Counted from the stretch's first letter, positions 43,903 through 63,690 are shown. The stretch is 64,000 nt of DNA from Pyramidobacter porci (GCF_009695745.1 NZ_VUNH01000011.1:1-64000), one strand, 5' to 3'. Numbers and translations are program-made. The notes: generated from the letters alone by a model not told the origin.

Positions 43903-44084
43903 GGTCGTTTCCTCCAATAAAAGATTGTCAGCCGCCGCGCATCACGCAAATTCCGGCCTCTGCCATAGAATTATACACTGAAACAATTATGCGATGGCTG
44001 TTGCTTTTTTCCGTTGAACAGAATGCAATAATTATGTGATGGCGGCACACGTAAATCCCAATAATAATGTGAGGCGTGCTGTAT

Positions 44085-44521: not shown

Positions 44522-44546
44522 TTAAGACAGAAAGGAGCTGATGATC

Positions 44547-45081: not shown

Positions 45082-45523
45082 TCACAAGGAGCCGCTGATT
45101 AAGTCGCATAGCTATCAAATCATTCATTTGAAAGTCAACTTTCCGTTTTCGTTCGTGGGAAATAATTAACGGCTCCTTTGTTCTGCGCACATGTTATGTT
45201 TCTCGTACCGGACAAAAATTACCAAAGGACAGCGAAAAGCCGTCTCGATTGACTTTTGAGACGGTCTCTTTTTGTAAATGTACCGTACCCGCGTATAGAC
45301 ACGGCGTAAAGTTGTTCCTTCGCCATCAACGCAGCCTAACATTCTTTATATATACGGTTCTGCGCTGAATGGAACAAACCTAGGGAGAGCCTACATCCTG
45401 TCGCCTGAAATCTACAGTAAAAACTGAGCGTTTTTAAACAGACTCTAGCTAGGATATATGTTATTGCGGAAATATTACAGGTACGTTAGGCTAAACCTAA
45501 TGAATCCGTTTGGGATTACTATA
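45082..45523. other. Gene-free region upstream of the glycan locus
   Basis: No gene is seen here. The ends of the first part are inverted: AAGGAGCCG (about 45087-45095) and CGGCTCCTT (about 45171-45179) bracket some 75 bases, which could be a small hairpin element or mobile remnant. A terminator lies at 45239-45273. The rest, up to the dehydrogenase gene, is AT-rich and may hold its promoter, with TATAAT at 45518-45523. Confidence 0.5.
45239..45273. terminator. Hairpin terminator
   Basis: GCCGTCTC (45239-45246) pairs with GAGACGG (45258-45264) and is followed by TCTCTTTTT. Confidence 0.65.
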
Positions 45524-45541
45524 ATGAAAGAAGAGTTCATA

Positions 45542-46792
45542 ATGAAAAATAAAGATAGACTTACCGTTGCCGTCGCCGGGACAGGATATGTTGGACTCAG
45601 CATAGCAACTCTTCTGGCTCAGCACCATAGAGTCTACGCTGTTGACATCGTTCCTGAAAAAGTCAACTTGATCAATAGTGGAAAATCACCATTTGCGGAT
45701 AAAGAAATCGAACAATATCTGGCGGCGGGAAAATTAGACCTCATCGCCACGCTGGACGCCGCGGACGCGTATAAAAAGGCGGATTACGTCGTGATCGCCG
45801 CGCCGACGAACTACGACAGCGCCAAGAACTTCTTCGATACCTCCGCCGTGGAAACTGTTATCGAACTGGTGATGAAACATAACCCCAACGCGATTATGGT
45901 TATCAAATCCACGGTTCCCGTAGGATATACGCGTTCAATTCGCGAAAGGATCGGCAGCCGGAACATTATCTTCAGCCCCGAATTTCTGCGCGAGAGCCGC
46001 GCCCTCTACGACAACCTTTATCCTTCGCGGATCATCGTCGGCACAGACCTTGACGATCCGCGGCTCGTCGAGGCGGCGCGTGCGTTTGCGGAACTGCTGC
46101 GGGAAGGCGCCCTCAAAAAAGACGTACAGACCCTGATCATGGGTTTTACCGAGGCGGAAGCCGTCAAACTCTTCGCCAATACCTACCTGGCCCTGCGCGT
46201 CAGCTTTTTCAACGAACTCGACACCTATGCGGAAATGAAAGGCTTGAACACAAAACAGATCATCGACGGCATTTCCCTTGACCCCAGAATCGGTTCCCAT
46301 TACAACAACCCGTCTTTCGGCTACGGCGGCTACTGCCTGCCCAAGGACACGAAGCAGCTCCTCGCCAATTATCGGGACGTGCCCGAAAATCTGATCGAGG
46401 CGATCGTTCAATCCAATAGGACCCGCAAGGATTTTATCGCCGAACGCGTGTTGCGAAAAGCCGGTTACTTCAAAGAAAGTTCAGAATGCGGCAGTCGCGG
46501 CGAAGAATCAATAACTATCGGCGTGTACCGCCTGACCATGAAAGCGGACTCCGACAATTTCCGTCAGAGCTCAATCCAAGGCGTCATGAAGCGCCTTCGG
46601 GCCGAGGGGGTTACCGTCATAATCTACGAGCCGACCCTCAAGGACGGCGAGACGTTTTTCGGCAGTGTCGTCGTCAACGATTTCGAGCAGTTTAAACGCC
46701 AGAGCCGTGTTATTATCGCCAACCGCTATGACCCCGTGCTTGATGACGTGAAAGACAAAGTTTACACTCGCGATATCTTTATGAGAGATTGA
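45542..46792 (+). CDS. ugd: UDP-glucose 6-dehydrogenase
   Basis: The 416-residue enzyme oxidises UDP-glucose to UDP-glucuronate in two NAD-dependent steps. Motifs are [19 protein letters not shown] (Rossmann GxGxxG), [50 protein letters not shown], and the catalytic cysteine in [13 protein letters not shown] (about 257). The C-terminal domain has [22 protein letters not shown] start at ATG 45542; ATG 45524 (MKEEFI) is also possible. It opens the plus-strand half of the glycan locus and would supply glucuronic acid for the polymer. Confidence 0.92.
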
Positions 46793-46820: not shown

Positions 46821-47987
46821 ATGACAATACTGCAAAGGGCGAAAAAAGTACTGAAGCGCTTTTATCCCCTACCTGTAGACGTTTTTAACAGGGAAATCCA
46901 TAAACTAAGCAGTGCTGTTGCCGAAGCGGACGAAAAAATTTCTGCAAAAGTGACAGATCTTTCGGATTCTGTTGCTCAGCGCCTACAGGATATCACAAAA
47001 GAGCAAACGCAGACAGCGGAGACGCTGACGGCAGAGCTGCACAAGCAAAGAGCACAGCAAACGAATGCACTGACTGAGCTTCAAAAGCAACTTGATCAGC
47101 AAGAGCAGAGAATCATTGCCGAAATGGACGAGCGAACCGCTGAACTGCAGAATCAATTCAAGCGGCAAACCCAAGCCCTTGCCTCTGAACTGCAAAAGCT
47201 GCTGCACAATGGCGAAAAAATCTGCTCCGAACTCCAGAAACAATTTTCGCTTTATGAAGCCAAGCTGTCTGAGCAGAACACGCTCATTAACCAAGTCAAC
47301 CGCCAGAGCGTCATCAGCTCGCGCAACGCTTCCGAGGCCGTCTGGGCGGAAATCTTCAATAACACCATTACGGGCAGCGAATGGCTGACCGATACCGCCT
47401 TTTCGCCGGGGCGCTGGGCCGTAGGATATCCCTATCTCTACGTCATGTATAGGGTTTTGAACGAAGTCCATCCCCGTAATATCCTTGAACTGGGGCTCGG
47501 ACAGTCGACGCGCATGATCGCTCAATATGCCGCCTGCTGTAAAGCCAGACATCAGATCGTCGAACACGACCCGGAGTGGATCGAATTTTTCGCAAGGTCT
47601 TTCAAGTTGCCGCCGTGCAGCAGCATCGTCACCCTGGATCGAGAATTGGTTCCGTACAAAGAAGCGGAAGCCGTCCGAGTCTTTAAAGACTTCTCGAAGA
47701 CCTTTGCCGGGCAGCACTTCGATTTCATTTCCATCGACGCGCCCTTGGGCGGGGATATGAAACAGTACGCCCGGATCGACGTGCTGCAATTACTTCCCGA
47801 CTGCCTGGCCGAGGATTTTGTGATCATGTTGGACGACTGCGAGCGTCCCGGCGAGAATCATACGTGGGAAGAAATAAAACGTGTCCTCAGTGCTGCCGGC
47901 GTCGCATACAGCGAAGGCGCCTATGGCGGTGTCAAAGACTGCCGGATCATGAGCTCAAGATCACTAGGCTTCGTCTGTAGCATGTAA
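46821..47987 (+). CDS. Coiled-coil protein with methyltransferase-like domain
   Basis: The 388-residue protein has an amphipathic start (ILQRAKKVLKRFYPLPVDVF), a long coiled coil (about 25-155, rich in Q, E, L and K), and a C-terminal Rossmann-like domain. The domain has NILELGLGQSTRMIAQYA (glycine-rich SAM loop, about 213-230), IVEHDPEWIEFF, and FDFISIDAPLGGDMK (about 303). A class I methyltransferase fold is likely, but the substrate is unknown. Coiled coils fused to capping enzymes act as length rulers for some O-antigens (WbdD), which makes a polymer-capping role possible here. A recognisable kinase domain is absent. Confidence 0.65.
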   Translation: MTILQRAKKVLKRFYPLPVDVFNREIHKLSSAVAEADEKISAKVTDLSDSVAQRLQDITKEQTQTAETLTAELHKQRAQQTNALTELQKQLDQQEQRIIAEMDERTAELQNQFKRQTQALASELQKLLHNGEKICSELQKQFSLYEAKLSEQNTLINQVNRQSVISSRNASEAVWAEIFNNTITGSEWLTDTAFSPGRWAVGYPYLYVMYRVLNEVHPRNILELGLGQSTRMIAQYAACCKARHQIVEHDPEWIEFFARSFKLPPCSSIVTLDRELVPYKEAEAVRVFKDFSKTFAGQHFDFISIDAPLGGDMKQYARIDVLQLLPDCLAEDFVIMLDDCERPGENHTWEEIKRVLSAAGVAYSEGAYGGVKDCRIMSSRSLGFVCSM

Positions 47988-48104: not shown

Positions 48105-50240
48105 ATGGAGCGTATAAAAACTTTGAGCGGAGAATCTGATGAAAAGATATTGGGTAAAATCATTGTCTCTGTTGTGATGCCGGTTTATAACGCACAAGAA
48201 TATCTTGCCGCAAGTCTTGATTGTCTTTTGAATCAAACATTGAAAGATATTGAAGTTATCTGCGTGAACGACGGTTCTAGTGATAATTCTCTGAAAATTC
48301 TCGAAGAGTACAGACGACATGACCCCCGTGTGGTTATCTTATCGCAGTCGAACAAAGGCGCAGGTGCTGCACGGAATTTGGGTTTTTCGCAGGGGAGCGG
48401 ACGTTACGTCTACTTTTTTGATGCGGACGACCTGTGCGCCCCGGATTTGCTCGAAAAATGCGTAAATGCTGCCGAAGCTCAAGAGGCCGATATTGTTGCT
48501 TTTAACTTTTCGCGTTTTTACCCTAATGGGAATGAGGAGCAGCGCATGGGAATTCATGACGATTGGCTCCCTAAAGGTTGTAAGGTTTTCAGCTGGCGTG
48601 ACTGTCCGGAACTGATCATGAGCGTTGTCAATCCGACCCCTTGGAACAAGCTATATCGCGCTGATTTCATACAGAAAAATCAACTTAGATTTGAAGAGAT
48701 TTCAACCACTAATGACATTACCTTCTGTGCTGTCAGCATGGCTGTGGCATCGCGCGTGACCTTTCTGAAGGATTCCCTCTTTAGATATCGTGTCGGGCAT
48801 TCACAGACAATTACCTCCAGAAAAAAGAAAAATTGGGCAAATATTATCACAGCAGTTCAAAGTGCAGAGAAGCAGATAAAGCGGCTTCCTTATTTTGAGG
48901 AAATTGTTGATTCACTGTGCCGTTTCATAATTGAAAACTGCATTTTTGGGATCAATTATTTTGACGGAGATTATAAAAGCGTGTCTTTCGGAGAGTACTA
49001 TAATCGGGTACGCAGCATTTTTGCCGGAGAGATGTTTTCAAATGTTAGCATCGACACCGTAAAGAATGAACTCCTCGTGCAGAAGTTTCGAGCTATACGT
49101 AAAAACTCGTACGAAGACTACCTGAAGCTGGCTGGGCACAAAATCGTCATTTCTCTGACTTCATATCCGAAACGGATTAAAGATGTTGCCGGCGTTTTGG
49201 AAACAATCTTCCGACAGAGTCGAAAAGCAGACGAAATTGTACTTTGGCTTGCAGAAGAGCAATTTCCCAAGAAAGAAAACGATCTGCCGGATAATTTACG
49301 GAAACTTGTTGATCAGCGAAAGATGACCGTTCGCTGGATTGCCGAAGATTTGCGCCCGCATAAAAAGTATTTCTGGGCGCTGCCCTCGTATCCTGACGAC
49401 ATTGTCATAACGATCGACGACGATCTGATTTATCCTTCGGATATGATCGATTCGCTGTTTGTGAGCTATCTGATTTATCCTCGCGCCGTCAGCGCCATGA
49501 GAGCTCATCTGATAGTGATTAATGAGGCTCTGGAGATTGAGCCGTATAACAACTGGATTCTTGAGACGGATCATTGCCGCTATCGCCCTTGTATGCAGTT
49601 GCTCTCAACTAATGGTGCGGGCACTCTTTTCCCTCCTGGTATTATGAGAAAAAATGAGCTTTACAACAGCGACGCTATCAAAGATACGTGCCTCAATGCA
49701 GACGACCTGTGGCTGAAAGCGATGCAGTTGTGCGAAAATGTTCCCGTAGTTGTCGCGCATAAGTACAAAAGCTTGCAGTATGTGCCAGACTCACAGGAAG
49801 AAGCGCTTGCTCATGACAACATGACAATGTGTCAGAATGACGTCCAGCTTAGGAAGATTACCGACTGGGTTGACAGAAAGTTAGGAGATGGATATTTTGT
49901 CAGGAAATTAACGTTGCCACCGCAGATGGAGGATAGCGTACAATTGTTGGGCGTCTCGGCCATATGTAAAATGTTCCGCGCAGAGCGCTGCAGAGAAAAA
50001 AATGAACGGCGCGTACTTAACAATAGATTGCAGAGAGCTCTCACAGCAGAAAAAGAACTAAAAGATGTGTGCCGGAGACTGCGGAAAGAAAATGTCGCGC
50101 TTGTCTCTAACTACCAAAAAACGCAGAATGAACTGCAGAAGATTAAAAAGTCAAAGCGCTATAAGCTGGCGGAGTACTTAGCAAGGCTTGTGTGGTTTGT
50201 ACGACGGCACTTCAAGCAATCAAAAGGAAAACTGCTGTGA
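48105..50240 (+). CDS. Two-domain glycosyltransferase (GT2 plus second GT-A-like domain)
   Basis: The 711-residue cytoplasmic protein begins with a GT2 domain (about 18-330): VSVVMPVYNAQEYLAASLDCLLNQT, VNDGSSDNS, and the metal-binding YFFDADDLCAP (about 103-113). A second domain starts near 345 (KIVISLTSYPKRIKDV) and carries its own acidic motif, ITIDDDLIYPSDM (about 435), with ADDLWLKAMQ (about 530) later. This second part resembles GT-A transferases of capsule loci. A basic coiled-coil tail (about 625-711) follows. AGGAG is eight bases before the ATG. Two sugar-transfer steps by one protein are likely. Confidence 0.8.
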   Translation: MERIKTLSGESDEKILGKIIVSVVMPVYNAQEYLAASLDCLLNQTLKDIEVICVNDGSSDNSLKILEEYRRHDPRVVILSQSNKGAGAARNLGFSQGSGRYVYFFDADDLCAPDLLEKCVNAAEAQEADIVAFNFSRFYPNGNEEQRMGIHDDWLPKGCKVFSWRDCPELIMSVVNPTPWNKLYRADFIQKNQLRFEEISTTNDITFCAVSMAVASRVTFLKDSLFRYRVGHSQTITSRKKKNWANIITAVQSAEKQIKRLPYFEEIVDSLCRFIIENCIFGINYFDGDYKSVSFGEYYNRVRSIFAGEMFSNVSIDTVKNELLVQKFRAIRKNSYEDYLKLAGHKIVISLTSYPKRIKDVAGVLETIFRQSRKADEIVLWLAEEQFPKKENDLPDNLRKLVDQRKMTVRWIAEDLRPHKKYFWALPSYPDDIVITIDDDLIYPSDMIDSLFVSYLIYPRAVSAMRAHLIVINEALEIEPYNNWILETDHCRYRPCMQLLSTNGAGTLFPPGIMRKNELYNSDAIKDTCLNADDLWLKAMQLCENVPVVVAHKYKSLQYVPDSQEEALAHDNMTMCQNDVQLRKITDWVDRKLGDGYFVRKLTLPPQMEDSVQLLGVSAICKMFRAERCREKNERRVLNNRLQRALTAEKELKDVCRRLRKENVALVSNYQKTQNELQKIKKSKRYKLAEYLARLVWFVRRHFKQSKGKLL

Positions 50241-50708: not shown

Positions 50709-52898
50709 GTGTTGCCTCAGGTATCGGTTGTTATTCCTGTTTATAACGCGGATGCGTATCTTGAGCAGTGCTTGGGAAGCATTGTTTCGCAAACGCTGAA
50801 AGAGATCGAGATCATCTGTGTCGACGACGGTTCGACGGATCGTTCATATGGTATTCTGCAACGTTTTGCGGAACAGGACGACAGAATCGTTCTCCTGCAG
50901 CAAAAGAACCAATATGCAGGCGTGGCGCGCAATGCCGGACTGAAGGCGGCTCGAGGGGAATACGTGATTTTTCTTGACGCCGATGATTTTTTTGATTGCA
51001 CCATGCTTGAAAAGATGCATTCCCAGGCTGTTTTTCATAACGCCGATATTACGGTGTGCGGCGCTCAGAATTATGATGCCGTGAACGGGAAAATTACGCC
51101 GGCACCTCATCGTTTCAGGAGTCTTCTCGTCAAAGGAATGGAGGTCTTTTCCAAGCGGGATATTCCCGACGAAATTATGAATATCACCTCGCCAGCAAGC
51201 TGGAACAAGCTTTACAGGAGGAAGTTTCTCCTTGAGGAAGGGCTGGAGTTTCAGCCGCTGCACAACACCAATGACTGCTTCCTGACGGAAGTGGCGATGT
51301 GCGTCGCGAAACGGATCGCCTACGTTGACGAGCCGCTGGTGAATTACCGCAAAGGACAAAGCAGTAATCTGCAAAGTTCCAGGCAAATTTCGCCATGTGA
51401 TTTTATGGTCGCGTTCGAAGCGGTTTATGACGACCTCCATCGACGCGGAATATTCCAAGAGGTGGAAAAAAGTTTTGTAAGGTTTGTGGTCGAGAACGTT
51501 GCTTATCAAGTGAAATCATTTCAGGATCATGATGAAAAATTTGCTGTTTTTGGCGAGATGCGAAAGCCTCATTTTGCGAGAATGGGGGTTTTTTCATATC
51601 CTGATGACTTTTATCCCGATAAAGGGGCGCTCAACGCCGCGCGCGGGGCTTTCCATGCGCTGGACTGGCATAACCGTTTTTCAATCCGTGGGCACGAGTC
51701 TTTTCCTGTAATCAAAATATCTGCAAGGCCGGCAACGCTGATAACTGTGCTTATTCAGACAGAAAACATTCCCGAGGGCGTTGTTGAAAGCATCGGGAGC
51801 ATACTACGCCAGTCTTGGGAGGACTTTGAAATCTTGCTGATCGCGAACGGCGCGGCCTGCGAAGATCTGAATGAGCTGAAAGTCCTGGCCAGTCGTGATG
51901 AGCGAATCTCTCTTTTTTCGCAAGGACTCTCACCTCGGACGGCTGCGAAGAATATTGGCATTGAGCATGCCAAGGGGAAATACCTTTGGTTTTTCCCCGT
52001 TGGTTGCGTCCTGGCGCCGTACGCGCTGGAACATCTGTGTGCCGTGTTGGAAGAACTGTGCTTGGACGGCGTATATTTTGATGAAGGCAATGTTGAGTCG
52101 GAACAAGTTAACGAAAGTAGGGCAGAGTTTCTCGCTGGACTCGTCAAATGTCGTGATGGGCGGACTTTAATGCGTGAATTGAAATCGAAACGAATGTACC
52201 GTTCTTCAGTATCTGCTCAGATTGTTAAAACGGATTTTTTGAGAAGAACAGAAATACGTTTTGCTGAAGAAACCAGCGATGGCAACGATCTCTTTACATT
52301 TTGCACGATGTTGGCGGCAGGGCGAACGGGATATTTCCCCCGAGATTTCTACCGGCAGTCGGCTGAAAGGCAGATGGTGAGAGCGGATCCTTTTGAGAAG
52401 GTCTATGAAAAATTTTATGCTTTTATGAAAGGTTGGCAATATGTGCAACACGTGGGTCTGAAAGATGACAACCTTCCCGCCGCTCTGAGCGTGCTTCAGG
52501 ACTTTTTAAGCGCGGCTAGAAATCTTTATCAAAAACTGTCGGGGGATGCGCGGTGTTCGTGGTGGGGATTGCCTCGGACGCAGGGATTGTTGTTCAAGGC
52601 ACTGGTGGCCGATGAGTGCGGGAGGGCGCAACAGCTTGGTTCCGCCAAAAAACAGCTGCAGAATATCAAGAAGGAAAATCTTGCTTGGGTAGGCCGATTT
52701 GAAAGCATGCAGAAAGATGCGGCAAAGATGAAAAAGCGGCTTTCATGCTTGGAAAACAGCCGCTCGTATAGACTGGGGCGCGCGGTTACGTATGTGCCGA
52801 GGAAAATTAAGGACACTCTTTGCCGATGGCGCCAGCATGGTCTGGCTTGCACCGTGAAATCAATACTCCGTAAAAGCATGAGATTCGGGAAACAGTAA
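50709..52898 (+). CDS. Two-domain GT2 glycosyltransferase, second domain without DxD
   Basis: The 729-residue protein starts with an intact GT2 domain (about 1-310): VSVVIPVYNADAYLEQCLGSIVSQT, VDDGSTDRS and IFLDADDFFD (about 88-97). A second GT2-like domain begins near 340: LITVLIQTENIPEGVVESIGSILRQSWEDFEILLIANGA and ERISLFSQGLSPRTAAKNIGIEHAKG. Where the metal-binding DxD should be, it reads YLWFFPVGCVLAPYALE, with no acidic pair. This half is therefore probably inactive, perhaps a binding or scaffold domain. The C-terminal 90 residues are a basic coiled coil like that of the other large transferase. The start is a GTG. Confidence 0.8.
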   Translation: MLPQVSVVIPVYNADAYLEQCLGSIVSQTLKEIEIICVDDGSTDRSYGILQRFAEQDDRIVLLQQKNQYAGVARNAGLKAARGEYVIFLDADDFFDCTMLEKMHSQAVFHNADITVCGAQNYDAVNGKITPAPHRFRSLLVKGMEVFSKRDIPDEIMNITSPASWNKLYRRKFLLEEGLEFQPLHNTNDCFLTEVAMCVAKRIAYVDEPLVNYRKGQSSNLQSSRQISPCDFMVAFEAVYDDLHRRGIFQEVEKSFVRFVVENVAYQVKSFQDHDEKFAVFGEMRKPHFARMGVFSYPDDFYPDKGALNAARGAFHALDWHNRFSIRGHESFPVIKISARPATLITVLIQTENIPEGVVESIGSILRQSWEDFEILLIANGAACEDLNELKVLASRDERISLFSQGLSPRTAAKNIGIEHAKGKYLWFFPVGCVLAPYALEHLCAVLEELCLDGVYFDEGNVESEQVNESRAEFLAGLVKCRDGRTLMRELKSKRMYRSSVSAQIVKTDFLRRTEIRFAEETSDGNDLFTFCTMLAAGRTGYFPRDFYRQSAERQMVRADPFEKVYEKFYAFMKGWQYVQHVGLKDDNLPAALSVLQDFLSAARNLYQKLSGDARCSWWGLPRTQGLLFKALVADECGRAQQLGSAKKQLQNIKKENLAWVGRFESMQKDAAKMKKRLSCLENSRSYRLGRAVTYVPRKIKDTLCRWRQHGLACTVKSILRKSMRFGKQ

Positions 52899-52955
52899 GA
52901 CGTCTTATGATAATAATCGGGAGAATAAAATAAGACTCGAATTGTGGAGGAACGG

Positions 52956-54089
52956 ATGAATTTCACGAAAGACGATACATTGAAAGTAAAAGGATCGGCC
53001 ATAATACTTATGCTGATTCATCATTGTTTTTTAGCTCCTGATAGGTATAAAGGCCAGGCCGTCATCTTTTATCCTTTCACAGAACAATTGGTCAATTATT
53101 TTGCTTTGGCAATGAAAATATGCGTCGCTCTTTTCACATTTTTAAGCGCTTATGGCATTTTTATGTCATACAAGAAAAAAAGTCAGATGCTTCTTTTGAC
53201 TGTAAAAGATATTCATTCCGAGATGGCGCGGCGAACGACAACTCTTTTGGGAGGGTATGTTTTTGTCTTCTTCCTCGTGCAGTTGTATTCTGTCTTGATC
53301 ATAAGAGGAGGTCGCTACGCTAAAATTTATGGCCATGGAATAAAGAGCGCGCTGTACTTTTTGATCGATTCTCTGGGACTGGCGGAACTGTTCAGGACGC
53401 CCACCTTTCTGGCAACTTTTTGGTACCTGTCGCTTGCCTTGGTGATTATTGCGCTGATGCCGATACTGATCGCTTTCTACAAGCGGTTCGGGACAGTTTC
53501 TCTGCTGAGCATGTCTGTTCTCTGTGCCGTCTTTTTTCCTGTCTCTTCAAAATGTACTTTTGCTTATCTCCCTCACTATGCGTTTTGTGTCGCCTTGGGA
53601 ATCGCGACCGCGGATCATAATTGGCTGTGCCAGTTCCGAGACTGGAAACCGGCAGGAGCACGTGGAATCGGTAAGATGCTGAAGGCCACTTTGATTCTTG
53701 TCTTCATTACGTTATTTCTATACTGGAGGCAGGTTACGAGATATACGCCTTTGTTGCCGATATGGGACGGTGTGGTGTCGTTTTTAACCATCGCGTTGAT
53801 GTTCGAGTTTATAAATCCGATACCGTTGCTGGGGAATTCCCTTAAATTTCTGGGAATCCATTCAATGAACGTTTTCCTGATTCATAATTTTGTCAGAGTG
53901 GTGTGGTACTATAAGTTTACATACAGCTTCAAGTACGCTTGGCTTATTGTGATTGTTCTGCTGGCAGTTTCATCGCTGCTTTCTGTTTGTATCGAATGGT
54001 TGAAGAACATTTTGGGATATTCTGCCATGATTGGAAATCTGAGAAATAAAGCGGCAGCGATGGCGGCGAAAAAAGAGAAAATAGGATAA
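52956..54089 (+). CDS. Acyltransferase family 3 membrane protein
   Basis: The 377-residue protein has about ten hydrophobic segments and the acyltransferase 3 (OafA/NolL-like) start: KGSAIILMLIHHCFLAPDRY, with the family histidines, then CVALFTFLSAYGIFMSY. The C-terminal FLGIHSMNVFLIHNFVRVVWY is also typical. These proteins O-acylate surface glycans, taking acyl groups across the inner membrane. ATG 52956 lies five bases after GGAGG. It is the last plus-strand gene before the orientation of the locus flips. Confidence 0.82.
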   Translation: MNFTKDDTLKVKGSAIILMLIHHCFLAPDRYKGQAVIFYPFTEQLVNYFALAMKICVALFTFLSAYGIFMSYKKKSQMLLLTVKDIHSEMARRTTTLLGGYVFVFFLVQLYSVLIIRGGRYAKIYGHGIKSALYFLIDSLGLAELFRTPTFLATFWYLSLALVIIALMPILIAFYKRFGTVSLLSMSVLCAVFFPVSSKCTFAYLPHYAFCVALGIATADHNWLCQFRDWKPAGARGIGKMLKATLILVFITLFLYWRQVTRYTPLLPIWDGVVSFLTIALMFEFINPIPLLGNSLKFLGIHSMNVFLIHNFVRVVWYYKFTYSFKYAWLIVIVLLAVSSLLSVCIEWLKNILGYSAMIGNLRNKAAAMAAKKEKIG

Positions 54090-54164: not shown

Positions 54165-56564
54165 TTATTCAAAAAGCGCTTCAAATTCATCGATGCATCT
54201 TTGATTATATTCCTGCATATTGATATTCAATGGCATGATATTGCCCGCGTCAAACTCCAGCATTCCCCGGTACAGCGCTTCAGCGCTTTCTTCGACAAGC
54301 AGGCCGCCCTGATATTGGGTCAGAATTTCTCGTGGCCCGTCTATATTTGTGCTGAGAATAGGAACGCCGAGACAGTCGGCTTCAAAGAAAACCACGGGCA
54401 ATCCTTCATGACTGGAGGACAGTACGAACAGATTGCATCTTTTCAAAATGCTGATAGGGTTGTTTATAGATTTAATAAGGCAGACGTTTCTGGTGCAGGG
54501 AAGTTTGCGGGCATAATTCAAAGTGTGGCGGTAAGAGTCTCCATACCCGCCGATGATAATGAGCTGGGAATCCTGATGATCTGCCCAGTACATGTTAAAA
54601 GCATCGAGCAGACGTAAATGTTCCTTTTCGGGAGAGAAGCGTCCTATTGAAATGAACTTGTTCCCTGAAGAACGCAGGATGCCGTTGATCCCGTCGGCGT
54701 TCATAGTCTGACAATCGGTTGTGACGTCGAGTTCCACATCCATATTTCCTCTGCTGGTTGTTCCTCTGTAATCAAAGCAGTTATGTACTGTGCGAAAATC
54801 GTGTGCGTGGCCGGCTATTTCTGCGGCAATGTTTGTCGAAGCGGAACTAACGCCAACGACTTTGTCGTACTTCCGATAGCACGTAAGCAACGTGTTTTTA
54901 TGCTGCACTTTTTTCTCGGAAAGTTCTTTTTTCATGTCGTTATGAACGAAGACGAACTTTTTCGGCGCTTGCAGAAACAGATTCAGAGGATCCCGACCGT
55001 AGCCGACGAACTGAATGAAAATATCATGAGGAATATTCCCGTAGTATTTCATGAACATCCGTTGATAACTTTTTGCGACGAAGTGGTTGATAATGGAAAA
55101 GCTCCAGTTGAATTTGTAGTAAAAAAACAGGGCGAACAATTCCATGACGGTTTTTTCTAGGGTATCGATGGAAAGAAGTCCCATATGGGAAGGGAGGTCG
55201 TTGAGTTTTTCCCTGTTTTCATAGGTTGCGGGGCTTAACTTGTAGACGGCAAAATAATTACGTTTTTCAAGATCTATCGTGTGGAGCAGATCAAAAGCAG
55301 CCGACGTGATCCCGTTTTTGATCAGCTCCAGATAAATAAAGACGTTAGTTTTGCCGTTGCTGGGCAGTTGCACTGTCTTGCAGTCGTAGTCGTAACCGAG
55401 GAATTGAGCGCAGACTCTCTTTACGGACTGAGAATTCTCATGTTCAACAATTCCTCGGATGAAATTGTCTTCAAGGTAATGAGGCCGCGTGTTTATTGCG
55501 GAAATCAGTTGATCGACGGTTTTTGCCTGTACGAATGGCAGTGTGACAATGGAAATATAAAGTCCGCGATCCTGGAGATATTCGTTTTCGTCATATGTGA
55601 ACAGAATGATGTTTTTCCCTGAACAGGCAAAATCAAACATCACGCTGGAGTAGTCTGTAACAAGACAGTCTGCAGCGTTGAGAAAATCATAGGTTTCATA
55701 TTCTTCAGGCATGTGCCTGATATGTTTGTATTGGTCTATGCTGACTTCTGCGGTAGCGAGAGGATGCAGCTTGACGAAGAAAAACTGATTGTCGTTGAGT
55801 TTTGCATCGAGTTCATCCAAGTATGACTGAAGCTGAGCAGTATAAGTTTCCGACTTGTCTGTATTTGAGTTCCCCCGCCATGTGGGCATGTATACGATGA
55901 TCTGCTTTTCAGAAAGTCCCAGCGCGTGCCGTACTTCCAAGGCGCGAGCCTTGTCAAAGAAAACGGCGTTGCGAGGGTAGCCTTCATTCAGGATCTTCCC
56001 TTCGAAAAGATGATCGAGAGAATAAGCTTTGACCATCAGTTCTGTCATGTACCCACTGGGGCAAAGTAGATAGTCGGACGCAAAAAAATTACGCTGCATA
56101 TTGCCGAAGTTGTATGCAGTTTTTGCCTCGTCCAATCCCATTTTTTTCAGCGGTGTGCCGTGCCATGTGTTCAGATACTGCTGCCCTCGACGTTTTATAA
56201 AGCAAGCATGAAAAGTTACGTCGTTGATAAGGTATTTGCAGGTCCCGAGCAGACGCCAGTAGGTAAATCGGTGCAGACGAATCAAATGCACGTTGTTGAT
56301 ATGGTAATGCTTTAACAGAGCTGTGTATTTGCTTTTGGTTTTCGGTATATAGGCAAGATAAAGGGTGTATCCCGGGTAGTTGTTGCTGAGCTCCTTCAAC
56401 AGGTAAAAAATGTTGCCGCCGAAGTCGTCCCCGTAACGCGATTGGAGGAGAATGCCCTTGTTCTTCAGAGGCAGATGGCCTCGGCAGAAAACATACCAGC
56501 TTTCGATAACGCTTGATTTGAATTCTCTCAAGGCTCGCGTGACAAGTTTTTTCAATCTGTTCAT
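54165..56564 (-). CDS. TagF-like CDP-glycerol transferase fused to a GT4 glycosyltransferase
   Basis: The 799-residue protein joins two GT-B modules. The first (about 30-400) is a CDP-glycerol glycerophosphotransferase domain: YLNTWHGTPLKKMGLDEAK (about 140), VYMPTWRG, FVKLHPLA and CLVTDYSSVMFDFACSGKN (about 310). The second (about 430-799) is GT4: FISIGRFSPEKEHLRLLDAF, LFVLSSSHEGLPVVFFEADCLGVPILSTNIDG. ATG 56564 has GGAGG upstream; the frame extends into the neighbouring gene, but that start is unsupported. The protein could add both a glycerol phosphate and a sugar to the same chain. The domain fusion is known from some capsule loci, but its product is not predictable. Confidence 0.82.
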   Translation of the reverse strand: MNRLKKLVTRALREFKSSVIESWYVFCRGHLPLKNKGILLQSRYGDDFGGNIFYLLKELSNNYPGYTLYLAYIPKTKSKYTALLKHYHINNVHLIRLHRFTYWRLLGTCKYLINDVTFHACFIKRRGQQYLNTWHGTPLKKMGLDEAKTAYNFGNMQRNFFASDYLLCPSGYMTELMVKAYSLDHLFEGKILNEGYPRNAVFFDKARALEVRHALGLSEKQIIVYMPTWRGNSNTDKSETYTAQLQSYLDELDAKLNDNQFFFVKLHPLATAEVSIDQYKHIRHMPEEYETYDFLNAADCLVTDYSSVMFDFACSGKNIILFTYDENEYLQDRGLYISIVTLPFVQAKTVDQLISAINTRPHYLEDNFIRGIVEHENSQSVKRVCAQFLGYDYDCKTVQLPSNGKTNVFIYLELIKNGITSAAFDLLHTIDLEKRNYFAVYKLSPATYENREKLNDLPSHMGLLSIDTLEKTVMELFALFFYYKFNWSFSIINHFVAKSYQRMFMKYYGNIPHDIFIQFVGYGRDPLNLFLQAPKKFVFVHNDMKKELSEKKVQHKNTLLTCYRKYDKVVGVSSASTNIAAEIAGHAHDFRTVHNCFDYRGTTSRGNMDVELDVTTDCQTMNADGINGILRSSGNKFISIGRFSPEKEHLRLLDAFNMYWADHQDSQLIIIGGYGDSYRHTLNYARKLPCTRNVCLIKSINNPISILKRCNLFVLSSSHEGLPVVFFEADCLGVPILSTNIDGPREILTQYQGGLLVEESAEALYRGMLEFDAGNIMPLNINMQEYNQRCIDEFEALFE

Positions 56565-56716
56565 AATGACCTCCACAAATGCCAGCTTTTTCCTAAAGAA
56601 GACTTTAGGTGAGATTGGGCACGCGCATATTGACGCTAACGATATACACAGAGCATTGGTCTGGGCAAGATCGTGCCTTGATGAAACCGGCGCTGGTAAA
56701 AACTGATGAGCAGTGT

Positions 56717-57643
56717 TCACCTGCTCCTGTCATTTGACTGTATGATTGTCAGTTCGTTATTTTGACGGTTATGCGTGACCATGGTGTTGAGAATCAGCCC
56801 GCAGACAGCCGTCAGTCCTGAAATGATCATCAGGGCAACGGATAGAATTGCCAGAGGAACATGCGATACAAACGCAGTACGGGCATATTCGACCAGTACG
56901 GGGAGTCCTGCGGCGAGCCCCAGCAGAAAAAGAACGAGAGCGAAAGAGCCGAAGAACAAAAGCGGCTGGTAATCGCGGAGCGTTGTCACGATTGTTCTCA
57001 GGACGCGAAAACCGTCGCGAAACGTGTTGAGTTTCGAGAAGCTGCCTGCCGGTCGGTCACGGTACGCGATAGGAATTTCTTTGATAAAAAATTTTCGGTC
57101 TAAGGCGGAAATGGTAAGCTCTGTTTCAACCTGAAAGCCGTCATAGAGCAGCGGCATGTTCTTGACAAAACGACGACTGAACGCGCGGTATCCAGTCATG
57201 ATATCGGTCAAATGGCTTTTAAAGCAGAAATTGACAAGCCAGCGAACCAGATTGTTGCCGAAATCGTGAAAGCCCCGTTTGTTTTCCTTGTAGTAAGTCC
57301 CGTTGCTCAGGCGGTCTCCGACTGCCATATCCATGTGTTCATCAACAACTGCGGAGATAAGTTTACGTACAGCTTCGGCAGGATAGGTATCGTCGCCGTC
57401 GACAAGGACATACACATCGGCTTCATAAGACCTGAACAGCTCTCGGATGACGGCACCTTTGCCTTGGCGAGGTACGTCAGTGACCTCTGCTCCCGCTTCA
57501 TGGGCAAGAAACGCAGTCTTATCTGTTGAGAGGTTGTTCATGACCACGATTCTTGCTTCGGGTAATTCTTTCCTGAAGTCCAAAACGACTTTCCGTATGG
57601 TCAACTCTTCATTGTAGCAGGGAATCGCGACAATGATCTCCAT
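56717..57643 (-). CDS. GT2 glycosyltransferase of the DPM/GtrB type
   Basis: The 308-residue protein has a GT2 catalytic domain (about 1-220: IIVAIPCYNEELTIRKVV, NNLSTDKTA, VYVLVDGDDTYP with the DxD, MTGYRAFSRRFVKNMPLL) and two C-terminal membrane segments (about 230-250 and 265-287). This is the build of polyprenyl-phosphate sugar transferases, which make a lipid-linked sugar that a GT-C enzyme uses outside. The neighbouring gene encodes a large membrane protein that could be such a partner. Spacing between the two is 12 bases. Confidence 0.85.
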   Translation of the reverse strand: MEIIVAIPCYNEELTIRKVVLDFRKELPEARIVVMNNLSTDKTAFLAHEAGAEVTDVPRQGKGAVIRELFRSYEADVYVLVDGDDTYPAEAVRKLISAVVDEHMDMAVGDRLSNGTYYKENKRGFHDFGNNLVRWLVNFCFKSHLTDIMTGYRAFSRRFVKNMPLLYDGFQVETELTISALDRKFFIKEIPIAYRDRPAGSFSKLNTFRDGFRVLRTIVTTLRDYQPLLFFGSFALVLFLLGLAAGLPVLVEYARTAFVSHVPLAILSVALMIISGLTAVCGLILNTMVTHNRQNNELTIIQSNDRSR

Positions 57644-57655
57644 TTTCCAGCTCCT

Positions 57656-59527
57656 TTATTCTGTTAGAGTGTGCGTGCGGCCGTCATATTTTGATGACGC
57701 TGCCAGCGTAAACAGTATGGGAAAGGCTGCAAGAACTGGTAGAAAATAGCGTGGATGTCCGTTGACGGGAGAGGCGATGCAGGTCAGAACCATCAGCAGG
57801 AGCGGTAAAGCTGCGATCAGGTCTCTGTATCTCCTGCTGGCTAAAAAATAACAGCAAATAAGCGTGATTCCCCACGTATACGTTGCCAGTTTTAGAAACA
57901 GGTTCACGACGGGCAGCTTTTTAGTGAGCGTATGGTAATTCATCATTGCTGTTCTGAGAAACTGAGGAAAATGATATTTGACCGAGAGTTTTCCCCATTG
58001 GAGCCACGCCTCTGCCTGGTAAGCATGGATCTCAGGTTTTTTCACTTTTATGGGCGGAGTGAAGGCATAATAACCGTACGAATTGGCAAAAAACGCCTCG
58101 AAGTGGTTGCGGGGATGACGCAGAAACATGCGGAGCCATACCTTGACACAGTTTATTTTGTTTTCACTGGTAGCGTTGTTTCTTAGAGAAGATTTCACTG
58201 GGTCGGATAGATTAGGATCATATATTTGGGGAAGTTTATCAAGGGGGAGAACTTTATCTAGGGTAGCGCGTTCGTCCTCTGTGATGTCTGAAGGATGATC
58301 CCGAGTGTATCTGGCGATTTGCTGGAGGGGGATGCTCAAGGCTTCTGCCGAACTTCCGGGAGTTAAGCCAAGAATTTTGAAATTGTATGTTTGAAAAACG
58401 AAGTAGAGAATAGGGACGGTAAGGAACAGCAAAAATGTTTTCTTCTGCCGTGATTTGCGGAAGATAAGCGAGGAAATGCAGATGAGCGTGGGAAACACGG
58501 CGTAGATCCCGTTATGACGAAGAAGGCATGCGAGAAGCGAAACCGTTAGATAGGCTGTTAAATCCTTAGGGGACACAGGACCCTGTCTAAGAAGAGTTGA
58601 TGTCGTTAAAGCGAAAAGAGCGAAGATGCCGCTGAATATGGGATCTTTAACAAAAGCTTGGGAGTAACCACCAAAATATGAAATGAATGAAAAATATATT
58701 AGAATACCTGCAGAAAGCGCCGTTGAATGAGTCCTTCGATATGAGGCTTTGACAATTTGTCCGTAGATCATCGCACTTAAAACGCTTTGAAATAAAACAT
58801 ATAGGAAGATTCCTAAATTATCATTCCCAAGACGTCTCCCCAACGAGAAGAGTCCGCCGATGAGCCATGTTGTTAAAATCGGATGATGGTCGGTAAGCGG
58901 TCGAACTCCAATGAATTCGAGAACTGACCGCAGTCCATCGAATACCGCTGACCCCGGGTAATAGACGACGAGCCATGGCGCCCAGCAGAGCAGGATGAAG
59001 AGCGTCGGCCATAGTCCTGAATATTTTGCCGAAGGGATGGATTTTTGCGGTGAGATCGAAGCTGGCTGTTTCGCTGAATCAAACAACCAGAACAAAAAGA
59101 GCGAAACAGAGTAAAAGAGAAAGGCATATCCGATAATGCAGATGACCGCGATGAAATGTTGATACTTATTGGCTAGTAAAAAATCCATCGAGTCAAGGCT
59201 GTTCATACTCAGACCAACGGTCTGCAGTACGCCGAAAAACATGCTCAGCAGCGCAAGCCAAGGACGGAAAAAGTGATATTGACTCGCTCGTTCCCAGATT
59301 TTTTTATAGGTAAAAGTTAAAAGGAGCGCTAAGAGCGTCCAAGTGACGTTATAAGCGTTGAAATTTTGCGGAAGCATGTTGAAAGCAGAAAGAAAAAGAT
59401 TGTTGACGTTTTGCCACTGCGGGACATGAATCCGCATGGACAAAGCCAATGTTGTTATCAAAGCTGCGCACAGAGGAAGGGCAAAAGGCGTATGGGGCTG
59501 TGAAAAAGTTTGCTTAGGAGGAATCAT
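57656..59527 (-). CDS. Large membrane protein (DUF6020-like, possible GT-C transferase)
   Basis: The 623-residue protein has about 12-14 membrane segments and a large loop near the C-terminus. The segment WLVVYYPGSAVFDGLRSVLEF with PLTDHHPILTTWLIGGLFSLG (about 190-240), and KDPIFSGIFALFAL, resemble the DUF6020 group, whose members look like GT-C glycosyltransferases. It is translated just upstream of the DPM-like transferase, which could provide its lipid-linked sugar donor. AAGGAG precedes the ATG. Function is inferred from fold and context only. Confidence 0.65.
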   Translation of the reverse strand: MIPPKQTFSQPHTPFALPLCAALITTLALSMRIHVPQWQNVNNLFLSAFNMLPQNFNAYNVTWTLLALLLTFTYKKIWERASQYHFFRPWLALLSMFFGVLQTVGLSMNSLDSMDFLLANKYQHFIAVICIIGYAFLFYSVSLFLFWLFDSAKQPASISPQKSIPSAKYSGLWPTLFILLCWAPWLVVYYPGSAVFDGLRSVLEFIGVRPLTDHHPILTTWLIGGLFSLGRRLGNDNLGIFLYVLFQSVLSAMIYGQIVKASYRRTHSTALSAGILIYFSFISYFGGYSQAFVKDPIFSGIFALFALTTSTLLRQGPVSPKDLTAYLTVSLLACLLRHNGIYAVFPTLICISSLIFRKSRQKKTFLLFLTVPILYFVFQTYNFKILGLTPGSSAEALSIPLQQIARYTRDHPSDITEDERATLDKVLPLDKLPQIYDPNLSDPVKSSLRNNATSENKINCVKVWLRMFLRHPRNHFEAFFANSYGYYAFTPPIKVKKPEIHAYQAEAWLQWGKLSVKYHFPQFLRTAMMNYHTLTKKLPVVNLFLKLATYTWGITLICCYFLASRRYRDLIAALPLLLMVLTCIASPVNGHPRYFLPVLAAFPILFTLAASSKYDGRTHTLTE

Positions 59528-59714
59528 TTTTTTACTCCTTGTCGTTTTTTGTTGTTCTTATCTGATTTCTGTACGGGGCATTATTGGGAATCGAGTCTAT
59601 CGTAGAACATAACCGAGGATTCCGGTATAGAGACAAGAAGAGGCAAAAACGACGATCAAGGCGCATTTTGCCTCGATGTTTTCCTGTTTTCTGCGACTGT
59701 TATTGTGCAGGTAT

Positions 59715-60104
59715 TTATCCTCGGAGATCTTTTTTTATCTGGGTCGTTGAGATCTCGGGCGTACGAGGGAGATAGACAACTTCGCACTGCTCTTTCAGAA
59801 AGTCGAATTTCCCTATCCAATCGTCTCCCATAACAAAAATGCCGACGTCATATTTCGTGACGTCGGTCTTTTTCTGCTCCCAGTTTTCTTCTGGAATAAC
59901 AAGATCGACATATCGTATGGCTTCGAGCATTTCTTTTCGTTTCTGATAGTCGAAATAGCATTTTTTGTTTTTGCTGTTCCAGTTGAATTCGTCGGTAGAC
60001 AATGCCACGATTAAGTAATCGCCGAGCGCTCTAGCGCGCTTGAGCAGGTTGATATGCCCATAATGAAGCAGATCAAAGGTACCGTAAGTGATAACGCGTT
60101 TCAT
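59715..60104 (-). CDS. tagD: Glycerol-3-phosphate cytidylyltransferase TagD
   Basis: The enzyme makes CDP-glycerol from CTP and glycerol 3-phosphate. The protein is 129 residues, the length of Bacillus TagD. It has the nucleotide-binding [18 protein letters not shown] with the HxGH motif (about 14-17), and the C-terminal [14 protein letters not shown] (ISTT motif). I start at the second of two close ATGs, 60104, because GGGAGA is eight bases upstream of it. It lies between a TagB/F-like gene and the DUF6020-like gene, so CDP-glycerol is made where it is used. It is the clearest indicator that the locus makes a glycerol-phosphate polymer. Confidence 0.92.
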
Positions 60105-60213
60105 CGTCATGTTCTCCCGAGGGTGAGGTTTAAGGCTATGTCTGGCATCTGAAAAATGGTTATTAAGAATCTGCAGAAACAACAAAGCACGGAATTGTAA
60201 GTTTCGTCTTGCG

Positions 60214-61425
60214 TCAGAACGGATGCGGTTTATTCAAGAACGTTTTTTTGCTTGAGGTTTCTTTATCCCAGTTGTCCCCATCGATAATCGAGAGAATTTT
60301 CCTTCCAACGATGGCAGATGCCTGACCGGTTTCTGCGATGCCAGCCTTGCAATGATACTGCTGCAGACTCTTCAGATATTTTTGCCTGTCAAACGAAAGG
60401 ATATTATTTGCTAACTCACGGATGTTTTCAGCGATGGGAAAACCCCACTGCGCCATAGGCATATAGAATCCCCGTTCGCGCTCATAGGAGAGGCGATCCG
60501 GTGCAAAGATGAAAATAGGATTTCCCGTCAGGGAAAAATCCCAGACGGAGGACGAGTAGTCGGTGATAAGCGCGTCAGCAGCACAAAGTAAGCGCTGCAT
60601 ATCAGGATAATGGTTTAAATCAATGGCATTGCAAACGGTGCGAGGCGAAAAGGTAAGGCGGTGTGAACGATACCCGAATTGCCAGTTCTCTTGTGTTGCC
60701 TTTTTCAATGTCCCTTTGATAAATTCTATTTGGGTTTCATTTAAAAATGGATTGAGGGCGTTGAGAGAGGAATGTCGTGCCTTACGGAATGTCGGAGCAT
60801 AAAGAACAAATTTGTCATTTTCAGAGAGTCCCAGCTCTGACCTGACTTTTAACGCTATGGAATTGAGGGCTTGAGGAGTAAAAAAGACATCATTTCGGGG
60901 GAGTCCAATTTCCCATAAAGACTCCTTGGTGGAGAGGTGATCTTCTATTGCGCCTTGAGAGAAGACTGTGCAGCTTGAGAGAAAAATATGCGTTTTCGAA
61001 GCGGCCAGGTCCCTATCTTTAAGGATCGCGGGGCAACGATGCTGCGGTGCTGTTATTCTCTTGCAGGGGCCTCCTCCGTGCCATGTGTTCACGACAGTGG
61101 TGTGTCTCGAAAAAGGCATGTAGGAGACGCCACCGTTATTTGTCAGGAACACTCGCGAATGCAAACTCTTGATAAAGAAGGCAAGGGAGCGCTTGTTAAA
61201 AAAAGAAACGCCGTCAATCTGCGGAAACGGAGGATTGCAGGCGAAGCAGATATCGAGAACATGACCGTGCTGCAGGAGGTAGTTGCAGATTGAAGCAGGA
61301 CTGTCTGCATAACTCCCCAAATCATTAAGAAGTGTGATCCTGTCAGCTTTTACAGGGAAAAGTCTCAACGGGAACAACAGGAACCGAAGTATGTATTTTA
61401 TGGCAATTTTGCAATAAATATTCAT
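60214..61425 (-). CDS. TagB/TagF-like CDP-glycerol glycerophosphotransferase
   Basis: The 403-residue protein is a single-domain member of the CDP-glycerol glycerophosphotransferase family. Motifs are [20 protein letters not shown] (about 112), [12 protein letters not shown] (about 208), [36 protein letters not shown] (about 280) and a membrane-associating N-terminus (about 8-24). The family attaches the first (TagB) or following (TagF) glycerol phosphates to a lipid-linked primer on the cytoplasmic face. Its size suits TagB better than the larger TagF. It lies directly after the exporter genes. Confidence 0.85.
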
Positions 61426-61466
61426 ACACTCGAACCTCGAATAAAATGTACTGTATTATCTCTTAA

Positions 61467-62207
61467 TTATCTCTCATCCAAAAACGCCTCATAGCGGGCG
61501 CAGACATCGTCCACCCGATCCCCGAATTCGACCTGCCGGCCCTTATGGAGCCAGAGAACTTTATTGCACATGTTTTGCACTTGCTCAAGCGAATGGGACA
61601 CCAAAATGGTGGTCGCGCCGCCGCGGATGATCTCCTGCATTTTTTCTTCGCTGCGCTTGCGGAACGCGCCGTCGCCCACGGACAGCACTTCGTCGAGGAT
61701 GAGGATGTCGGGATCGACGAGCGAGGCGATGGAAAAGGCAAGGCGCGATTTCATGCCTGAAGAAAGCTGCCTGAAGGGGCGGTCCTGAAACTCCGCAAGT
61801 TCGGCGAAAGCGATAATTTCGTCGTATTTGTCGTTCATAAAGCCGCGGGTGTAGCCCAGCATGGCACCACGCAGGTAGGTGTTTTCCCGCACCGTCAGAT
61901 CGTTGTCGAAGCCGCTGGCAAGTTCCAGCAGGGCGGCGATGTTTCCTAGGCAGCGCACACAGCCTTCGGTGGGTTTCATGATGCCGGAAATGGCTTTGAG
62001 CAAAGTCGATTTGCCGGCACCGTTCGTGCCGATGATGCCCAGCATGTCGCCCTTTTCAAGGGAGAAAGTGATGTGGCGGTCGGCCCAAAATTCCTGCACG
62101 TGGTAGTCTCCTTTTATTTTTTGGATGACATAGTCTTTGAGGCCGATAGCTTTGAAATCTCCGATTTTGTAACGGATTGAGACATCCTTTAATTCAATGA
62201 CAGACAT
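61467..62207 (-). CDS. Polysaccharide or teichoic-acid exporter ATP-binding protein
   Basis: The 246-residue ATPase is of the TagH/Wzt/KpsT type, powering export of a finished lipid-linked polymer. Motifs are Walker A GIIGTNGAGKSTLLKAISG, signature LSSGMKSRLAFSIASLVDPD, Walker B ILILDEVLSVGD and the switch VSHSLEQV. It is short and lacks the C-terminal carbohydrate-binding domain found in Wzt and the extension of Bacillus TagH, so export is probably not end-group-selected. ATG 62207 has AGGTGA five bases upstream; the permease stop is 12 bases before it. Confidence 0.9.
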   Translation of the reverse strand: MSVIELKDVSIRYKIGDFKAIGLKDYVIQKIKGDYHVQEFWADRHITFSLEKGDMLGIIGTNGAGKSTLLKAISGIMKPTEGCVRCLGNIAALLELASGFDNDLTVRENTYLRGAMLGYTRGFMNDKYDEIIAFAELAEFQDRPFRQLSSGMKSRLAFSIASLVDPDILILDEVLSVGDGAFRKRSEEKMQEIIRGGATTILVSHSLEQVQNMCNKVLWLHKGRQVEFGDRVDDVCARYEAFLDER

Positions 62208-62219
62208 GGCGTTCACCTG

Positions 62220-62987
62220 TTACACGTAGTAAAGAAATTCGGTGTTGTATTTTCGATACATCCAGCAGCCCAGCAAAAGGACAGCAGCCACGTCGAAGGC
62301 CATCAGCAGGTGAAAGGTGACAGTGGGAACGGTGTCTTCAATGACGATTTTTCTGAAATAGCGGATAAAAAGATAGACTGGATTGATCAGAAACGCATAT
62401 TGCGCCGTAGTGCTGAAACTGTCGATGCTGTAGAAAATGGCGGACATGTACATAAGCAGCTGAGAAAAAATGGACCACAGATATTGAATGTCGCGGAAAA
62501 AAACGAACAAGGCCGACAGCACCAGCCCCATGCCGATGTTGAACAGCATCAGCAGCGCTACGGGATAGAGAAGAAAGATGAACTTCCACGTGAAAGTAAT
62601 ATGGTCGATCAGACAAAAAATGAAAAAGACGACAAGAGTCAGGCCAAAATTGATGAGGGTCTGACAGTTTTTGGAGAGGAGAAACAGATACTTGGGGACG
62701 TTGACCTTGGTAAAGATCGCGGCGTTGCCGAGGAGCGACGTCATCCCTTGCGTTGCGGACTCGTTGAAGTAGGCGAAGACAAGATTGCCGCAGAACAGGT
62801 AAGTGGTGTAGTGCAACATGGTGCGGCCGAAAAAGTGGGTGAAGACAAGCCGCATGACCAGCAGCATCGCCAGCGGCGAAAGAATGCTCCATCCCATTCC
62901 GAGAACGGTTCGTTTGTATTTTTTCTTGAAATCGCGCTTCACCAGTTCCTCAAAGAGAAACTGGTGTTTTTTGTATTTTTCAAGCAT
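62220..62987 (-). CDS. Polysaccharide or teichoic-acid exporter permease
   Basis: The 255-residue ABC-2-type permease has six membrane segments and pairs with the next ATPase. The N-terminal amphipathic helix (LFEELVKRDFKKKYKRTVLGMGWSILSPL) is typical of TagG, RfbA and KpsM proteins. ATG 62987 follows AAGGAG; a frame to 63134 runs into the promoter region and is not supported. It is the first gene of the minus-strand operon. Confidence 0.9.
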   Translation of the reverse strand: MLEKYKKHQFLFEELVKRDFKKKYKRTVLGMGWSILSPLAMLLVMRLVFTHFFGRTMLHYTTYLFCGNLVFAYFNESATQGMTSLLGNAAIFTKVNVPKYLFLLSKNCQTLINFGLTLVVFFIFCLIDHITFTWKFIFLLYPVALLMLFNIGMGLVLSALFVFFRDIQYLWSIFSQLLMYMSAIFYSIDSFSTTAQYAFLINPVYLFIRYFRKIVIEDTVPTVTFHLLMAFDVAAVLLLGCWMYRKYNTEFLYYV

Positions 62988-63426
62988 GAGACGCTCCTTG
63001 CTTTGGCATGATATGTAACAGTTATGGGGATATCCGTTTTCGAACGGAACGGCGTTTCTCCTCGGCGCGCCGCTGCCGCGGAATGCGGCGATCCTGCTGC
63101 CGCTTTTTATAGCGGCTCCGTATATCAGGTACAAACGGTTCTCTTTACTTAAAAACTTAAAATCTTCAAAACGGCTTACTTAAATCGGCAAGCGACGCGA
63201 CGTGCTCATTATACGCAAGGTTCCGGAAAAATGCCAGTTTGCAGTGGATCCTGCTTTGTCGGGGGCGTTGGCGCGGCGTCTGCCGGTCGGTTTGTTTCAC
63301 GGGCGCACTGCCGCGCGGAGCGGCGAGGCGCTGAAGGGGAGATTCTCCTCGAAAAAGACAAACTGGTTGTATTTTAGATGATGGAAAAGCACTCTTGATG
63401 ATGTAACAGGAAAGGAGGTGAGAACG
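62988..63426. other. Divergent intergenic region
   Basis: This 439-base region lies between the exporter operon (minus) and the DUF1659 gene (plus). The left part holds the exporter promoter and leader, and the middle has three ACTTAAA-like repeats (about 63147-63185). I see no gene in it. Confidence 0.5.
63106..63134 (-). promoter_or_regulatory. Promoter of the exporter and teichoic-acid-like operon
   Basis: On the minus strand TTGTAC (63129-63134) and TATAAA (63106-63111) are 17 bases apart, about 120 bases before the permease start. The GCCGC/GCGGC hairpin (about 63099-63116) covers the -10. TTGAAG with TAAAGA a little further upstream is a second candidate. Confidence 0.5.
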
Positions 63427-63651: not shown

Positions 63652-63690
63652 GGCGGTTTGTGACGGGAAAAACGAAAGGAGGTGACAGGG

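Follow-up and report, generated by a model that had tools for sequence, protein, structure and literature searches.

A putative exchangeable surface-polysaccharide cassette with TagD and a TPR-less CpsD-type polymerase in the diderm Pyramidobacter porci

The seven-gene locus described here, in a 64,000-nucleotide stretch of Pyramidobacter porci DNA (the window), may represent an exchangeable and recently acquired surface-polysaccharide cassette whose polymer joins lipopolysaccharide (LPS) as O-antigen, a reading that we hold to be somewhat better than even. Each part of it is known already; what is new is that, in a deep diderm phylum, TagD is combined with a CpsD-type polymerase lacking a TPR domain, beside an exporter whose partner chemistry alternates between glycerol phosphate and phosphonate. 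A sequence-only reading had proposed a CDP-glycerol-based surface polymer containing glycerol phosphate in a diderm, and the gene content (LpxC, BamA, LpxA and heptosyltransferases) supports this prediction. All of the tag-like genes named in that reading were found on the minus strand where it had placed them; the list was correct as far as it went and incomplete, since a GT2 gene (56717-57643) and a DUF6020 gene (57656-59527) also belong to the set. The features of the region are as follows.

63208..63237, minus strand: operon promoter CTGGCA-18-TATAAT (pattern scan; kept in the congeneric genomes G116 and G117)
62220..62987, minus strand: ABC-2 permease, Wzm/TagG-like, 255 aa (PF01061; ATG start, RBS AAGGAG)
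61467..62216, minus strand: ABC ATPase, TagH/Wzt-like (PF00005; without a C-terminal carbohydrate-binding domain)
60214..61425, minus strand: PF04464 CDP-glycerol:glycerophosphotransferase, TagB/CpsA-sized, proposed primase (Pfam profile, catalytic His)
59715..60110, minus strand: TagD, glycerol-3-phosphate cytidylyltransferase (TIGR01518; TarD/TagD structures)
57656..59527, minus strand: DUF6020 polytopic membrane protein, proposed periplasmic glycosyltransferase (PF19484; hydropathy)
56717..57643, minus strand: GT2, proposed polyprenyl-phosphate-hexose synthase (TIGR04182; DPMS structure; hydropathy)
54165..56564, minus strand: two-domain polymerase, TagF-like GroP transferase + GT4 (Pfam profiles; collinear with Cps3D, without TPR domain)
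52944..54089, plus strand: convergent acyltransferase family 3 membrane protein, possibly for polymer decoration (PF01757)
50709..52898, plus strand: GT2 protein, member of the low-GC island (Pfam profile, GC3)
48105..50240, plus strand: GT2 protein, member of the low-GC island (Pfam profile, GC3)
46821..47987, plus strand: protein of unassigned family (no Pfam match)
45458..46792, plus strand: UDP-glucose 6-dehydrogenase-like nucleotide-sugar dehydrogenase (profile match)
42898..43917, minus strand: GalE, UDP-glucose 4-epimerase, possible UDP-Gal source (TIGR01179, 450.6 bits; GC3 0.87)

From the promoter, the minus-strand order is ABC permease, ATPase, PF04464 transferase, TagD, DUF6020, GT2 and PF04464+GT4 fusion. 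Judged by the gaps between them (3, 41, 103, 187, 12 and 152 bases), the seven genes are consistent with one operon. The suggestion that the set has its own promoter was confirmed at 63237-63208. From the scan alone the call is weak, because five matches to the −35/−10 pattern were found against 3.5 expected by chance; its support is conservation, the element lying in a block that is nearly identical in three congeneric genomes while the sequence around the block varies. Upstream of this promoter, two short plus-strand genes, DUF1659 and DUF2922 (63427-63906), lie within the stretch that aligns with the congeners.

The identification of TagD proved correct. The protein scored 206 bits against the TIGR01518 equivalog, the curated cut-off of which is 165 bits, and 198-200 bits against solved TagD/TarD enzymes; this strong homology points to CDP-glycerol synthesis as its function. 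The two PF04464 proteins of the locus scored 229.5 and 153.9 bits (cut-off 22.1 bits). In the smaller one, at 60214-61425, both catalytic His positions of TagF are kept (NTWHG, SHRL). Priming is the role of CpsA and TagB, which belong to the PF04464 family (PMC11666461), and is likewise proposed for this protein.

The second PF04464 protein had been taken for a TagF-like transferase. The TagF-like domain is indeed there, but the protein is not a single-domain TagF: a GT4 domain is fused at its C-terminus, and its start was moved to ATG 56564, which is likelier than GTG 56720 by the ribosome-binding site. Residues 19-771 align with residues 370-1112 of Cps3D (8QOY) at 277 bits, as against 103 bits for TagF itself, and the collinearity with Cps3D spans about 750 residues. 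In alignment with TagF and Cps3D, the TagF-like domain shows both catalytic histidines (NTWHG, KLHP), and the fused GT-B hexosyltransferase domain has the conserved Arg/Lys (GRFSPEK) and an EGLPVVFFE motif. Moreover, the motifs NTWHG, PTWRG, DYSS, GR.SPEK and EX7E are invariant in the polymerase and its relatives from Phaeobacter and Staphylococcus. Cps3D works by alternation, its first domain adding glycerol-3-phosphate taken from CDP-glycerol and its second domain adding galactose (PMC11666461). Given the end-to-end alignment of the fusion with this Gram-negative capsule polymerase, the backbone is expected to be a poly(hexosyl-glycerol-phosphate) rather than a plain TagF-type polymer. The presence of galE, which has host-like GC, at the left edge of the low-GC island fits UDP-Gal as the hexose donor and proves nothing.

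A TPR domain is absent from the polymerase, only about 36 residues preceding the TagF domain. Every CpsD homolog so far analysed combines a TPR module with the catalytic ones, and extension of a poly(glycerol phosphate) primer by CpsD requires the TPR domain (PMC11666461). The polymerase is therefore regarded as a variant of the CpsD type. Similar TPR-less TagF-GT4 fusions were found elsewhere. One stands beside tagD on plasmid pP78_d of the diderm Phaeobacter inhibens, where a capsule-annotated gene also occurs; another is encoded on an IMG/VR viral contig (L127:7629-10378) with tagD directly after it. A search of the viral contigs with TagD gave three loci, one of them with a TagF-GT4 fusion beside tagD, and a search of named genome contigs with the fused protein returned as its sole match a GT4 in a Ca. 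Electronema MAG.

Between TagD and the polymerase lie the GT2 and DUF6020 genes. The GT2 protein has two C-terminal membrane helices by hydropathy, scores 215 bits against the AglJ model TIGR04182, and also matches the structure of dolichyl-phosphate mannose synthase (DPMS). A Priestia plasmid carries a GT2 gene whose product is 53% identical to it; the next genes there are one for DUF6020, immediately adjacent, and two for EamA proteins. In DUF6020, D197 and H215-P216 are invariant in three relatives and probably lie in an outer loop. The PDB, searched with DUF6020 by phmmer and by profile, gave no relevant match, a search of viral contigs gave none, and a single-sequence structure prediction (pLDDT 43) was too low for use. 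A GtlA/GtcA/YfhO-type system attaches sugars to teichoic acids from outside (PMC7389260). The present pair resembles GtlA/CsbB-GtcA-YfhO in joining a GT2 with C-terminal membrane helices to a large polytopic protein, and we infer that DUF6020 is a glycosyltransferase; it differs in that DUF6020 has no solved relative and only a putative activity, and in that no GtrA-type flippase gene was found adjacent to the pair.

The exporter had been described as TagGH-like, on which its two proteins point in different directions. The ATPase is best matched by TagH models (PRK13545, 208 bits, against 176 bits for galactan Wzt), but the nearest PDB relative of the permease is the Wzm-type O-antigen permease 6m96 (67 bits), TarG giving 23 bits. 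Both exporter proteins are conserved within the genus, the permease being 90% and the ATPase 85-87% identical in G116 and G117, and at the DNA level these genomes align at 86-87% over 61492-65007, a stretch that runs from the end of tagH and takes in the right flank. The homology stops at the 3' end of tagH, and beyond it the two congeners carry phosphonate-biosynthesis genes instead. Their cassettes encode PEP mutase (419-422 bits), phosphonopyruvate decarboxylase (458 bits in G116, where it was tested; in that part the DNA of the two cassettes is 88% alike), a PsrA-like dehydrogenase, GT2s, RmlB in both genomes and RmlA (tested in G117), and probably make a phosphonate-modified polysaccharide. 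They are located at L130:11086-17487 and L130:17493-L131:4348 in G116 and at L132:3998-17608 in G117. Since G116 and G117 keep the exporter beside phosphonate genes, the exporter is not specific to glycerol phosphate; and since the congeners use it for a phosphonate-type polymer, the locus seems to work like a serotype locus. A classical wall set of TagB, TagF and TagGH is thus not supported: the polymerase is of the CpsD/Cps3D type, and the exporter is a genus-conserved one standing beside a different cassette in sister species.

Base composition changes in steps across the region. GC3 is 0.48-0.56 in the cassette genes of the operon, 0.68-0.70 in the exporter and 0.83-0.89 (about 0.86) in host genes, which would indicate recent insertion of the cassette beside an exporter acquired earlier. 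On the left side, comparison with the congeners for an empty site aligned fragments only, so the left boundary is imprecise. This left edge of the low-GC island is marked, at 44080-45081, by a toxin-antitoxin pair of the RelB/YafQ type and a truncated piece of an ATPase-like gene; fragments of the edge are repeated several times in G116. Contamination or a chimaera is unlikely, as both flanks have host-like GC in a 123-kb contig and the exporter and right flank match the congeners.

The gene set is not a conserved possession of the phylum Synergistota, to which assignment of the host fits. When the locus was compared across the phylum, TagD exceeded its cut-off in the studied genome only, 1 of 188, and the whole set was found at none of the sampled phylum loci; a phylum-wide conserved tag operon was therefore rejected. 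PF04464 exceeded its cut-off in 30 of the 188 genomes, with a patchy distribution, and two genomes from another family likewise have permease, ATPase and PF04464 genes in this order. In contrast, TagA occurs in 175 of the 188 genomes and LCP in 174, both as single copies. Because they are almost phylum-wide, TagA and LCP predate the cassette and must mainly serve otherwise. A literature search for Synergistetes and teichoic acid, covering open-licence papers, found no dedicated paper, and a 2021 review places LCP in eight phyla, Synergistetes not among them (PMC7831098).

By its gene content the host is a diderm. LpxC, LpxA, BamA (Omp85 with POTRA) and an LpxB-family match are encoded, together with two family-9 heptosyltransferases, an HldE-like protein and, near these core genes, a WaaL-like ligase with a modest Wzy_C match (65 bits); the genes for an LPS with core and O-antigen ligase are thus present. 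It had been noted that tagO and tagA are missing, which is true of the window and not of the genome. Outside the window and unlinked to the cassette are a tagO-like (WecA-like) gene at C3:286703, apart from mraY, and a TagA-family gene at C3:93245. The latter product matches the TarA structure at 177 bits and keeps all of the tested TarA active-site residues (Thr, Asn, Asp, Arg, Gln-Glu and the C-terminal Arg), the roles of which were described previously (PMC6493773). TagA-family proteins of the phylum measure about 580-600 aa, and the one of the studied genome (L097:8088-9827, C3) has a polytopic N-terminal domain of about 330 aa without a Pfam match. The genome has one LCP gene (C1:276786; L100:9115-10422), best matched by TagU at 157 bits and by TagU/V structures at 112 bits; a single gene of this family is almost universal in the phylum.

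An LPS anchor is favoured, at slightly above even, over a linkage to peptidoglycan by LCP, which we consider doubtful. Cassettes exchanged in the manner of serotypes beside a Wzm-like exporter that is conserved, with WaaL present and neither Wza nor Kps found, make up the pattern of O-antigen loci. What counts against it is that the ATPase is best matched by TagH models and that the host has a TagU-like LCP, so that peptidoglycan linkage is possible. The polymer might then resemble a wall teichoic acid, grown on ManNAc-GlcNAc-PP-undecaprenol and joined to peptidoglycan by the host LCP; the WecA-like gene, the intact TarA active site and the wide occurrence of TagA and LCP all fit such a polymer. 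However, TagA and LCP are found almost phylum-wide and TagD in one genome, so that the two most likely belong to a different, ancestral polymer; unrelated cassettes accompany the retained exporter, as for O-antigens, and its permease is nearer to Wzm than to TarG. It is rather unlikely that the ancestral WecA-TagA-LCP module of the phylum is the landing site for the acquired cassette, yielding a real teichoic acid on peptidoglycan beneath an LPS membrane.

The polymer had also been suggested to be capsular. The polymerase is indeed of a Gram-negative capsule type, and the diderm Phaeobacter plasmid combines a TagF-GT4 fusion and tagD with a capsule-annotated gene. However, neither the KpsC/KpsS Kdo transferases (PF05159) nor a Wza/KpsD-type outer-membrane export protein (Poly_export, PF02563) gave a match in the 98% complete genome, by which a canonical group 2 (Kps) capsule was rejected, and the TPR domain that CpsD needs is missing. 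A capsule of the CpsD kind or a free exopolysaccharide, lipid-anchored by a route other than Kps/Wza, is accordingly improbable. That the cassette is decayed or silent, or an assembly artefact, is very improbable: the low GC and the truncated ATPase and toxin-antitoxin pair at the left edge might suggest it, but the open frames are intact in all seven operon genes, most of them with recognisable ribosome-binding sites, the catalytic motifs are kept, both flanks have host-like GC, and the exporter and right flank match the congeners.

Under the preferred O-antigen reading, TagD would make CDP-glycerol, and the host WecA-like and TagA-family enzymes, the genes of which are present, might build an undecaprenyl-PP-linked acceptor that the PF04464 protein would prime with glycerol phosphate. 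The TagF/GT4 enzyme, as its collinearity with Cps3D suggests, would add glycerol phosphate and hexose (Gal in Cps3D) by turns. The ABC pair would carry the chain across the inner membrane, on the periplasmic face of which GT2 and DUF6020 may add a side sugar via a polyprenyl-phosphate sugar. Most likely, the WaaL-like ligase would then move the chain to the lipid A core to give a glycerol-phosphate O-antigen. Although they predate the cassette, TagA could thus provide the acceptor, or LCP the ligase.

Several known systems resemble the locus in part. Like CpsD of Actinobacillus pleuropneumoniae (Cps3D-Cps7D; PMC5974469, PMC11666461; 8QOY), the polymerase unites in one chain a TagF-like GroP transferase and, behind it, a GT-B domain (a galactosyltransferase in CpsD), with the catalytic motifs kept, and TagD-type and priming PF04464 enzymes belong to the same pathway; unlike it, the polymerase has no N-terminal TPR, and its locus contains an ABC exporter and a GT2/DUF6020 pair, KpsC/S and Wza not being found. 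With the wall teichoic acid systems of Bacillus and Staphylococcus (TagOABDFGH + LCP) are shared TagD, a TagB-sized PF04464 protein and a TagH-like ATPase, and the genome has, at other places, genes resembling tagO, tagA and LCP; the differences are the diderm host, the two-domain, probably hexose-adding polymerase, the Wzm-nearer permease, and a tagA and LCP that are ancestral and unlinked. ABC-dependent O-antigen loci (Wzm/Wzt, WecA-initiated) likewise have an exporter pair, a WecA-like initiator, a WaaL-like ligase and exchangeable cassettes beside a conserved exporter, but here the ATPase lacks the Wzt carbohydrate-binding domain and a glycerol-phosphate polymerase accompanies ordinary glycosyltransferases. 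The fusions of pP78_d and L127 have the same two-domain architecture adjoining tagD; that of Phaeobacter is about 27% identical, the neighbours differ, and neither such an exporter pair nor a GT2/DUF6020 pair was seen beside them.

Taken together, these results add to the known carriers of teichoic-acid-like polymer genes a deep-branching phylum that bears LPS and is otherwise almost without them, and provide a CpsD-type capsule polymerase that lacks the TPR domain. The exporter stays while the phosphorus chemistry attached to it differs between species, glycerol phosphate in one and phosphonate in others, and the locus has more the look of an interchangeable surface coat than of a wall of the Gram-positive kind. 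With TagA and LCP so nearly universal in the phylum, the presence of a peptidoglycan-linked polymer in this diderm lineage becomes testable. Other phylum loci (L069, L073, L074, L075 and further ones) encode more distant TagD-like cytidylyltransferases, with 44-118 bits to TIGR01518, some of which share a frame with, or adjoin, PF04464 domains; this hints at further polymer pathways that use CDP activation.
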